NCBI GenBank assembly: GCA_903882875.1
Contig: CAIRYQ010000015.1
Location: 62,001 to 126,000, forward strand
Source of the DNA: an uncultured Spartobacteria bacterium
GTDB lineage: Bacteria; Verrucomicrobiota; Verrucomicrobiia; Chthoniobacterales; Chthoniobacteraceae
Length of the DNA: 64,000 bases
Direction: 5' to 3'
The first letter of the stretch is position 1. Each line of letters begins with the position of its first letter. Made by a program: the position numbers and the translations under genes. Below are positions 53,461-56,358 of this stretch, in pieces. Below the pieces are notes generated by a model. The model ran no database searches. It saw only the letters and a program-made list of their open reading frames with translations, and was not told the origin of the DNA.

Positions 53461-54213
53461 TCGCACCAACACCCCCTGAGCGCCGTCCAAAACCAGGGCC
53501 AGTTCCCCTCCACCCGCTGGTCGCTCGTCCGCCGCGTCCAGTCGCCCGACGGCGCCGTCGCCGCGACTGCGCTCAATGAACTCTGCGCCGCCTACCACTA
53601 CCCACTCTACTGCTACCTGCGCAGGCGCGGCTGCTCGCACCACGATGCGCAGGATGTCCTCCACGATTTCCTCGCCTCCCTCCTCCGCACGAAGGCGCTC
53701 GAACGCATCGAGCAGGAGCGCGGCCGGCTGCGCGGCTTCCTCTCCACCGGCATCGGGCGGCACCTGAACGTCTGGCGGCGGGGCGAGACGAAACGCGAGC
53801 AGCCTGTCGCCGGATTTGATCACCTGCTCGACTTTGACGCCGACGAAAACCGCTACTGCCGCGAACGCTTCACGGATGGCGATACACCCGAGCGCATCTT
53901 CGAGAAAAGATGGGCCTCCGAGATCATCCGGCAGGCCATGGCGAAGCTCGCCGCACGCTACGAGAGGAAGGGCCTCGCCGATGTCTATGCCGCGCTTCAG
54001 CCCGTGGTGCAGCAGGGCGGCACCTTGCGCGGGGAGGATCTCCCGGCGCTCATCGCGCAGCTCGGCGTGGGCGAAGAGGCCGTCCGCAAGACCCTCAGCC
54101 GCATGATGGTGAGATTCCGCCAGGAGATGGAATACGCCGTCCGCCTCACCGTGGAGGACTCCGCCGCAGTGGGGGAGGAACTGGCCTACCTGCGCGGGCT
54201 CTTCGCGCAGTAG
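53461..54213 (+). CDS. ECF-like RNA polymerase sigma factor, 5' end unclear
   Basis: The reading frame encodes a recognisable PVC-type sigma-70-like protein: 'GQFPSTRWSLVRRVQS', then 'YHYPLYCYLRRRGCSHHDAQ', DVLHDFLASLL (region 2), and a C-terminal region 4-like segment 'IAQLGVGEEAVRKTLSRMMV'. These factors direct RNA polymerase to specific promoters. The frame is open from 53308, but the first ATG/GTG/TTG in it is at 53938, inside the conserved domain, so the protein cannot start normally. The start given here is only a lower bound of homology. Initiation at a CTG (53476), a frameshift from the 46-codon frame upstream, or an assembly or sequence error are all possible. Confidence 0.75.
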   Translation, partial: SHQHPLSAVQNQGQFPSTRWSLVRRVQSPDGAVAATALNELCAAYHYPLYCYLRRRGCSHHDAQDVLHDFLASLLRTKALERIEQERGRLRGFLSTGIGRHLNVWRRGETKREQPVAGFDHLLDFDADENRYCRERFTDGDTPERIFEKRWASEIIRQAMAKLAARYERKGLADVYAALQPVVQQGGTLRGEDLPALIAQLGVGEEAVRKTLSRMMVRFRQEMEYAVRLTVEDSAAVGEELAYLRGLFAQ

Positions 54214-54262
54214 CCGCAAAGCCGGCCCGGCACCCGGCGGCATGACCCTCGGCCGGGCGGGC

Positions 54263-54325
54263 CCGCTGCTTGGCCTGGCGGGAGTGCTGCTTGGCCCGGC
54301 GGGCGTGCTACTTGGCCCGTTGGGC
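54263..54325 (+). repeat. Three tandem 21-bp units
   Basis: Three imperfect copies of a 21-base unit of the form GTGCTGCTTGGCCCGGCGGG plus one base, at 54263, 54284 and 54305. They encode a leucine/glycine/proline heptapeptide (LLGPAGV-like) in one frame, but the surrounding open frame lacks protein character. They abut the palindromic element. Confidence 0.8.
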
Positions 54326-54537
54326 CAAAGGCCCGCAGACAAGCCAGCCCAGGGCAAGTCCGCGCCTGCGCGGACGCCGCCCTGGGTCAAGGCGTTCATA
54401 GAGGACAAAGCCCTGAAAGGGCGGGGCAATTTTGTGCCGCCCCTTCAGGGCTTTGTTCCTGTTCTGCAAGGAGACCCAGGGCGGCGCTCGTTGCACTTCG
54501 CTTGCCCTGGGCTGGCTTGTTTGCGTGCCTTTGGCCC
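54322..54537. repeat. Long palindromic element (~216 bp)
   Basis: The left arm (54322-54389) and right arm (54472-54537) are inverted copies: GGGCCAAAGGC...AAGCCAGCCCAGGGCAAG...CGCCGCCCTGGGTC on the left and its complement on the right, apart from about 20 divergent bases in each arm. The centre has its own smaller hairpin (54407-54428 with 54435-54454, AAAGCCCTGAA...TTCAGGGCTTT). I recall similar palindromic repeats with an AGCCCTGAAAGGGC core from planctomycete and verrucomicrobial genomes. No transposase is present, so it is a non-autonomous element or an RNA-fold repeat. Confidence 0.85.
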
Positions 54538-54595
54538 GCGGGCTCGTCGTTTTTGCCACGCAACCGGACCGGTGCGGAAAATAGTCGCTTATTAT

Positions 54596-54629
54596 CGGTC
54601 ACAAAAGTCGGCGGGATGCCTAACCGCGT
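54596..54629 (+). promoter_or_regulatory. 34-bp direct repeat, copy 1 (candidate ECF promoter)
   Basis: Begins CGGTCACAAAAGTCGGCGGG and ends CCTAACCGCGT. It matches copy 2 at 31 of 34 positions. A GTCACA box, 16 bases, then CTAAC resembles -35/-10 spacing for an ECF-type sigma factor. The upstream sequence is AT-rich. The GTG at 54628 lies at its 3' end, so a transcript would be nearly leaderless. The promoter role is inference. Confidence 0.55.
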
Positions 54630-54924
54630 GTGGAAAACCACCTCACCTTTGCGAATCCGCTGCCCAAATTGCTCGACCCGCTTCACCTGGACACGCGCCG
54701 CGTGCCCCCGCTGCTGGCGCGAGAACGGCCTCCGGCCCGCCATGCTCGCCCTGAAGCTGCTCATCGTGCTCGTTTTCTCCGCGATCGTCGCGGGTGCCAT
54801 CTGGGCGGTCCGCGCAATCTCGGATGATGCGGACATGCACGGCAACATCCAGCGGGATTTGAGGCCGTGGTCGGCGACACCGGCACCCCAGCAGCCGGGC
54901 CCGCAGTTCCGCGACCAGCTATGA
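54616..54924 (+). CDS. Zinc-ribbon membrane protein
   Basis: A 102-residue protein. The N-terminal zinc ribbon has Cys pairs CPNC and CPRC (residues about 16-19 and 30-33), followed by a single membrane segment near 43-65 (LALKLLIVLVFSAIVAGAIW) and a Pro/Gln-rich C-terminal tail. The ATG at 54616 lies inside the 34-bp repeat, where the other copy does not keep it; the GTG at 54628 is at the conserved repeat edge and may be the true start. Its place after a sigma gene suggests a regulatory or anti-sigma-like role, without direct evidence. Confidence 0.6.
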   Translation: MPNRVWKTTSPLRIRCPNCSTRFTWTRAACPRCWRENGLRPAMLALKLLIVLVFSAIVAGAIWAVRAISDDADMHGNIQRDLRPWSATPAPQQPGPQFRDQL

Positions 54925-55111
54925 AGGGCGAATGCCGTTTGCGGAGCGGGGGCAATGTCCCAATTTTGGAGCCAAGAATCCAGGAGAGGAGGAAAAACCG
55001 GGGGAACGAGAGGGAAGGGCCGATTTTTCATGGCTTCGTGGCTTCCAAATTCAGACGGGGGCACTGCCGGAGCGGGCGGCGGAGGCGGCGGGAAAGATTT
55101 TTGAAGATTTC

Positions 55112-55145
55112 CGGTCACAAAAGTCGGCGGGACTCCTAATCGCGT
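55112..55145 (+). promoter_or_regulatory. 34-bp direct repeat, copy 2 (candidate ECF promoter)
   Basis: Begins CGGTCACAAAAGTCGGCGGG and ends CCTAATCGCGT, one base before the ATG at 55147. It differs from copy 1 at three positions. Its place directly before a start codon mirrors copy 1. See copy 1 for the -35/-10 reading. Confidence 0.55.
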
Positions 55146-55229
55146 AATGAAGACCATCATGAACACCCCCGCCTTCACCGTCGTCGCCACGTTGAAAACC
55201 CCGCCCGCCGCTCCCTCCGCGCGCGGTGC

Positions 55230-55481
55230 CTCCGGTCGGACCGGAGGCGTCCGCAGTCGGACTGGGGGTGTCCGCGGTCGGACCGGAGGCGTCCGCGGTC
55301 GGACCGGAGGCGTCCGCGGTCGGACCGGAGGTGCCCGCGGTCGGACCGGAGGTGCCAGCGGTCGGACCGGAGGTGCCAGCGGTCGGACCGGAGGTGCCCG
55401 CGGTCGGACCGGAGGTGCCAGCAGTCGGACCGGAGGTGCCCGCGGTCAGACCGGAGGTATCCCCGGTCGGACCGGAGGTGC
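55230..55481 (+). repeat. Tandem array of twelve 21-bp units
   Basis: Twelve copies of a 21-base unit with core GGTCGGACCGGAGG and a variable 3' part (CGTCCGC, TGCCCGC or TGCCAGC). The unit length is a multiple of three, so several frames stay open through it: one encodes (G-R-T-G-G-V/A-R), another (V-G-P-E-V-P-A). In the first frame, an ATG at 55147 leads in (MKTIMNTPAFTVVATLKTPP) and joins the gene at 55663 without a stop. Confidence 0.9.
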
Positions 55482-55662
55482 CGCCCGTTTGGAAAGACGT
55501 ACCCTTTCGCCACCATGCGCCCCGTTTCCCAAGCCGCGGGGCCAAACCCCATCACCAGCCATGACCCCGTGGGATAGCGGGACGTGGGACTCGGGATTTT
55601 GGGATGCTCCCAACCCGCCGCCGCTGCCGATTTTAACCCAACCCAAAAAGAGAACCAAACAC

Positions 55663-56358
55663 ATGCCAAAGACAGACTATATCGAAAAGAACGACGATCT
55701 GTTTGCAGCGCAACTGCAGAAGTTCAAGATCACCATCGGCAGCTATAGCACGCTGTTCGCGCTCACGGCCCCGCAGATTACCTCGCAGGCGGCGGATGCG
55801 GACTACTTCGCCTACGTGCAGGCGTGCCAGCAGATCATGCTGGATGCGGCGCAGCAGTGGACGGCGTGGAAGACGCTGCTGCGCGCCGGGGGCAGCGCGG
55901 CGGCGGGCAGTGAGCCGGCAGCGCCCGTTTTCCCGGCGGCGGTGCCGGCGGTGCCCGTGGGCATCGAGGTGCGTTTTCGCGCGCTGGTGCAGTTCATCAA
56001 GGCGAACCCGAGCTATAACCCGTCCATCGGCGAGGCGCTGGGCATCGAGGGCGCGGTCCACGTCGCGCCCGCCGCGGTGAGTTTGCAGCCCGTGCTGCAT
56101 CTGGAGCAGCGCGGCGGGCTGGCGTACGCGTATTGGAGCCTGGGAGCGAACCGCGCGTTTGTGGATTCGCTGGAGCTGCAGGTGGACCGGGGCGACGGGA
56201 AGGGCTACGTGCTGCTCGCGCAGACCCCGGGCACGCATTACACGGACCCGACGCCATTCCCTGCCACGCCCGCGAAGTGGAAATACAAGGGCATCTTTTG
56301 CAAGGCCGGGGCGCGCGTGGGCCAGTGGAGCGACGAGGTGGCCATCATTGTAGGATGA
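55663..56358 (+). CDS. Protein of unknown function, helical N-terminus and beta-rich C-terminus
   Basis: A 231-residue protein from MPKTDYIEKNDDLFAAQLQK. Residues 1-75 are predicted helical ('TSQAADADYFAYVQACQQIM', 'AAQQWTAWKTLLRAGG'). A Pro/Ala linker follows, then a mixed region ('IEVRFRALVQFIKANPSYNP') and a C-terminal beta domain like a fibronectin repeat ('LELQVDRGDGKGYVLLAQTP', 'WKYKGIFCKAGARVGQWSDE'). Similar proteins are frequent in PVC-group and Bacteroidetes genomes, with no known role. The frame continues upstream through the 21-bp array to an ATG at 55147, so a longer form with a repeat-rich N-terminus is possible. The start at 55663 is preferred, with AAAAAGAGAA ahead of it. Confidence 0.7.
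   Translation: MPKTDYIEKNDDLFAAQLQKFKITIGSYSTLFALTAPQITSQAADADYFAYVQACQQIMLDAAQQWTAWKTLLRAGGSAAAGSEPAAPVFPAAVPAVPVGIEVRFRALVQFIKANPSYNPSIGEALGIEGAVHVAPAAVSLQPVLHLEQRGGLAYAYWSLGANRAFVDSLELQVDRGDGKGYVLLAQTPGTHYTDPTPFPATPAKWKYKGIFCKAGARVGQWSDEVAIIVG

Follow-up and report, generated by a model that had tools for sequence, protein, structure and literature searches.

Paired 34-bp repeats beside a verrucomicrobial sigma factor gene are probable ECF-type promoters of a local regulon

ECF41 sigma factors read promoters with a TGTCACA –35 box, a spacer of 16 ± 1 bases, and a CGTC –10 box; these sites lie before the target gene, the sigma factor gene, or both, and the adjoining local target is the only one detectable (PMC3426412). 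At their C-terminus, ECF41 proteins have a large extension with a regulatory role, and the genes under their control encode carboxymuconolactone decarboxylases, oxidoreductases, or epimerases (PMC3426412). In a 64,000-nucleotide stretch of DNA from an uncultured Spartobacteria bacterium (the window), an ECF-type sigma factor gene is followed by two copies of a 34-bp direct repeat whose –35 box, 16-base spacer, and local-target arrangement agree with ECF41. The –10 box, however, is CTAAY in the window and (C/G)TAA in the clade rather than CGTC, the sigma factor has no C-terminal extension and no such Pfam domain, and its neighbors are a zinc-ribbon membrane protein and an unnamed family. In these three defining features the system departs from ECF41, so it does not belong to that group, although it operates in the manner of an ECF41-type local regulon. 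With ECF promoters in general, the repeats share a bipartite structure, a spacer of ~16 bases, an AAC-like –35 core, and a position beside the sigma factor gene. As argued below from sequence comparisons, both copies are likely, at a probability of roughly 0.84, to be promoters read by RNA polymerase carrying this sigma factor, and the pair very probably constitutes an ordinary kind of local switch.

The repeat copies, CGGTCACAAAAGTCGGCGGGATGCCTAACCGCGT (copy 1) and CGGTCACAAAAGTCGGCGGGACTCCTAATCGCGT (copy 2), are identical at 31 of 34 positions and differ at three, just as the original prediction described them. Also as described there, each copy contains a GTCACA box, a 16-base gap, and a CTAAY box (GTCACA 54598–54603 and CTAAC 54620–54624 in copy 1; GTCACA 55114–55119 and CTAAT 55136–55140 in copy 2), and the associated start codons are GTG 54628 and ATG 55147, respectively. 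Copy 1 includes a further in-frame ATG at 54616, between the –35 and –10 boxes. The chance expectation for such a 34-bp pair is 0, and a 20-mer core searched at up to three mismatches gave two matches in the window and a maximum of 0 over 100 shuffles. Likeness is weak past the 34 bases (73% over 71 bases). The expected lack of a third copy in the window was borne out and extends to the whole genome (5.78 Mb, 129 contigs). At up to three mismatches, the genome holds one match besides the pair (G000:C80:27577, L003), which we rejected as chance: it lies on the opposite strand, in the 5′ part of a reading frame, and lacks a –10 box. Three-mismatch matches in relatives also mostly look like chance and lie inside reading frames. 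A scan for sigma-70-type promoters yielded just one weak site, at 54553–54582.

Table 1. Features of the sigma factor locus, in window coordinates.
Feature	Position	Strand	Basis or remark
ECF-type sigma factor gene, proposed user of the promoters	53476–54213	+	TIGR02937, Sigma70_r2, and SigE profile match
Repeat copy 1, predicted ECF promoter P1	54596–54629	+	Boxes, spacing, ortholog comparison
Gene for zinc-ribbon protein with one hydrophobic segment, ~98 aa	54628–54924	+	GTG 54628 at predicted transcript start; alternative ATG 54616
Repeat copy 2, predicted ECF promoter P2	55112–55145	+	Boxes, spacing, ortholog comparison
21-bp tandem array, 12.3 copies, palindromic core GGTCGGACC	55225–55482	+	Gene-3 leader
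Gene 3, conserved 231-aa family, no Pfam/NCBIfam name	55561–56358	+	Nearest P2 target

The sigma factor matched TIGR02937 (sigma70-ECF) over residues 29–214 of 242 with E = 4.7e-7 and 29.6 bits, below the 42.9-bit cut-off; a paralogue (L066) scored above that cut-off, at 49.1 bits. The Pfam Sigma70_r2 match had E = 0.0015, and the sigma profile matched SigE chains in the PDB (E = 9e-4). The protein is ~245 aa long and ends soon after region 4. NCBIfam TIGR02989, the Rhodopirellula/Verrucomicrobium sigma-70 family, shares its phylum and its sigma-70 ECF type, but the match was just E = 0.076 and 13 bits against a cut-off of 124.55. Judged by such profile scores, the sigma factor belongs to a verrucomicrobial clade outside every named NCBIfam subfamily. 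No ATG, GTG, or TTG precedes 53938 in its frame, and CTG 53476 aligns with the ATG of the closest ortholog (CTGAGC versus ATGAGC). The gene probably starts at this CTG; alternatively, an assembly error may account for the lack of a standard codon there.

The boxes, their spacing, their strand, and their position relative to the sigma factor gene are conserved at orthologous loci. The nearest sigma factor ortholog, at 60% identity, is found in another genus (G014, also L118), where GTCACG-N16-GTAACCGCGTGGTG (also given as GTCACG-N16-GTAACCGCGTGGTGAAGACC) stands at the corresponding place, ~135 bases past the sigma gene, and immediately behind it lies what is left of gene 3, a 3′ remnant. From its sequence, the target gene at this locus (G014:C1, L062, 3940–4140) seems mostly deleted, with the promoter kept and only the 3′ remnant left. 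In a motif-free comparison of the orthologous intergenic regions, the best 40-mer match was the repeat itself, which aligned in register at each of the two copies in the window (29/40 and 28/40); the best among 106 control comparisons was 27.

A contig scan with a four-sequence alignment provided 26 related verrucomicrobial sigma loci. When the pattern GTCACA/CTAA, taken from the window before the relatives were examined, was searched with up to two mismatches, downstream matches peaked at 5 for a gap of 16, against 0–3 for other gaps. A degenerate version set after the relatives were seen, GTN(A/G)C(A/G)-N16-(C/G)TA(A/G/T)C, occurred 6 times beside the sigma gene on the sigma strand at gap 16, versus 5 in the other 50 gap/strand/region cells. 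Sites beside the sigma gene include GTTACA-N16-GTAAGC (L126), GTAACA-N16-GTAACC (L142), GTAACG-N16-GTAACC (L137), GTAACA-N16-GTAATG (L129), and GTTACA-N16-GTAGCA (L122). Upstream of the sigma gene we found GTAGCG-N16-GTAACC (L128) and GTAGCG-N16-GTATCC (L123), and the placement of such sites before the sigma gene at two Verrucomicrobiaceae loci looks as in autoregulation. Over the 26 loci, sites of the form GTNACR-N16-(C/G)TA cluster next to the sigma gene, on the sigma strand with exactly 16 bases between the boxes; the –10 box is CTAA in the window and GTAA in most relatives. Conserved boxes at a fixed spacing of ~16, beside the sigma gene and on its strand, are what is expected of an ECF-type promoter, and the retention of this layout beside orthologous sigma genes of other species supports the ECF reading proposed originally. 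About half of the related sigma loci had no such site. With a weight matrix built without the close ortholog, one of the two copies reached no better than fifth place among window sites; with one including the ortholog and L141, the copies ranked first and second. Genome-wide matches to loose patterns did not exceed a reversed-pattern control, and unbiased dyad and expectation-maximization motif searches, swamped by composition, returned nothing specific.

Among 57 relatives, exact matches to a longer pattern that includes part of the spacer occurred only at the two window copies, in a sigma cluster of G003, and in a cluster of G004 that holds homologs of the same zinc-ribbon and target genes; these four places are all in same-genus genomes. 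Two mismatches added the G014 ortholog, one site on contig C104 of G003, which lies 73 bases before a probable M43-type metalloprotease gene (named from sequence), and one more in G003. In a second sigma cluster of the Spartobacteria genome itself (G000:C28), the zinc-ribbon gene comes first, followed by the site, which has a spacer of 17 bases, and then by the target gene and the sigma gene. Behind the sites in G000:C28 (L064), G003:C371 (L065), and G004:C286 (L170) stands an unnamed family of about 200 aa (MKTLNFQQAPVVPAHCLW...), for which an NCBIfam search gave no match. We rejected gene 3 as a general target, as its paralogues elsewhere are without the promoter motif, and we rejected a large regulon in this genome, as none was found; P1 and P2 may be the entire regulon here.

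The most likely arrangement is a local regulon in which the sigma factor would direct RNA polymerase to both promoters. In this model, its domain 4 would bind GTCACA as the –35 element and its domain 2 would open CTAAY as the –10 element, across the fixed 16-base spacer. We infer that transcription from P1 would begin at or next to GTG 54628, giving a leaderless mRNA for the zinc-ribbon membrane protein, and that transcription from P2 would begin at or next to ATG 55147 and reach gene 3 through a leader containing the 21-bp array. The expectation of nearly leaderless mRNAs fits this locus and its G014 ortholog, but start codons in other relatives lie ~23 to >100 bases past the –10 box, so leaderlessness is no property of the promoter class. 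For copy 2, the frame is indeed open from ATG 55147, but this codon is probably not where the conserved gene-3 protein starts; a start at 55561 or 55663 is probable, and the P2 transcript probably has a ~415-base leader that includes the array rather than being a leaderless gene-3 mRNA. The first 139 codons from 55147 are mostly tandem array, and the open frame is weak coding evidence because the array unit length is a multiple of three. The conserved part of gene 3 begins at 55663, and the in-frame ATG 55561, the probable start, adds a tryptophan/aspartate-rich N-terminus (MTPWDSG..KPKK) ending in PKK that recurs in L090 and, in part, in L074 and L087.

Arrays of this kind recur in the gene-3 family members tested. 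In the 400 bases starting 500 bases upstream, 21 was the strongest repeat period in all nine members tested (the window, L075, L076, L078, L079, L087, L088, L089, and L090). The arrays differ in sequence, and several have a palindromic core (GGTCGGACC, GGTACC, CGACCAcaTGGTCG); each array has its own sequence, and therefore the architecture is kept but the sequence is not. A second, short array of 21-bp period (54251–54319, 3.3 copies, GGCCCGGCGGGCGTGCTGCTT) directly follows the sigma gene. Between the sigma gene and copy 1, at 54322–54537, lies a 216-bp long inverted-repeat element to which the genome has 66 dispersed matches, on both strands; several are full-length at 74–80% identity, and some lie at contig ends. 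In this it resembles palindromic mobile elements or REP-like ones. An Rfam search of the region found no family.

Could the repeats have another role? Operators for a transcription factor, for example one co-regulated with the sigma factor, with incidental resemblance to –35 and –10 boxes, would explain why the spacer is nearly identical in the two copies and partly common to the G003 and G004 sites (AAnnTCGGCGGGA), which exceeds what a plain ECF promoter needs. In other species, however, the boxes and their 16-base separation are retained while the spacer sequence is not, and the 34-bp element is no inverted repeat and follows the orientation of the sigma genes; we regard operators as unlikely. 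Similarity of the spacers, together with a similar start of the sequence downstream (GTGTGGAAAACC, GTAATGAAGACC), could also reflect a recent duplication without function, in which the stretch around one gene's start was copied before the other gene, too recently to have decayed. In G004, a zinc-ribbon homolog outside the sigma clusters (L104) has a similar 5′ flank (GTCGCTTATTCTCG) without the element. But duplication accounts for the likeness of the copies and not for conservation, and the orthologous locus in another genus retains the element, with most of its target gene lost, making a functionless copy very improbable.

Least credible of all is a coding repeat. Both copies, translated in frame with the gene that follows, give VTKVGG(M/T)PNRV(W/M)KT; this frame is open across each of them (ATG 54616 included), and the repeats could in principle encode two related protein N-termini. 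Yet the closest zinc-ribbon homolog begins MHIRCP, without the VTKVGG peptide, the start of the gene-3 family lies hundreds of bases downstream, and relatives retain the DNA boxes at their fixed gap but no peptide.

Under the preferred reading, in which both copies are promoters for the sigma factor, the likeness of the copies, which extends to the spacer, would probably reflect the duplication of one to give the other, an event that would have placed the zinc-ribbon gene under the sigma factor. The promoterless flank of L104 would fit a history in which the zinc-ribbon gene was captured when the promoter was duplicated.

Distant paralogues may extend the comparison. Downstream of their sigma genes, TAACA is the most enriched 5-mer, and GTAACA-N16-TCTGA follows the sigma gene at three loci (L036, L039, and L044); some of these genes, at least at the L036/L066 locus, adjoin Ser/Thr kinases. 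GTAACA-N16-TCTGA is likely the promoter code of another clade, and the whole sigma family may read a GTAACA-like –35 box with a –10 box that differs by clade. A broader proposal is that a verrucomicrobial promoter code of its own (–35 GTNACA, spacer 16, and –10 STAA, or TCTGA in the kinase-linked clade) is combined with a P1-encoded zinc-ribbon protein that acts as the cognate anti-sigma-like regulator. We consider this combination speculative and rather doubtful; the hint of a regulator role comes from zinc-ribbon homologs, which occur both in G000:C28, the second sigma cluster, and in the cluster of G004.

In the literature searched, which did not extend to the current ECF classification paper, we did not find the GTNACA/STAA consensus of the clade described. 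The sigma factor and its signal sequence appear to be undescribed, and the novelty of the group is uncertain. The comparison yields a promoter consensus that can be tested, along with two defined targets, for a Verrucomicrobiota sigma clade without a named NCBIfam subfamily. Some genomes of the order contain many paralogues of this clade, beside kinases, proteases, and unnamed proteins, and the –35 code, once known, would allow the targets of these paralogues to be predicted.
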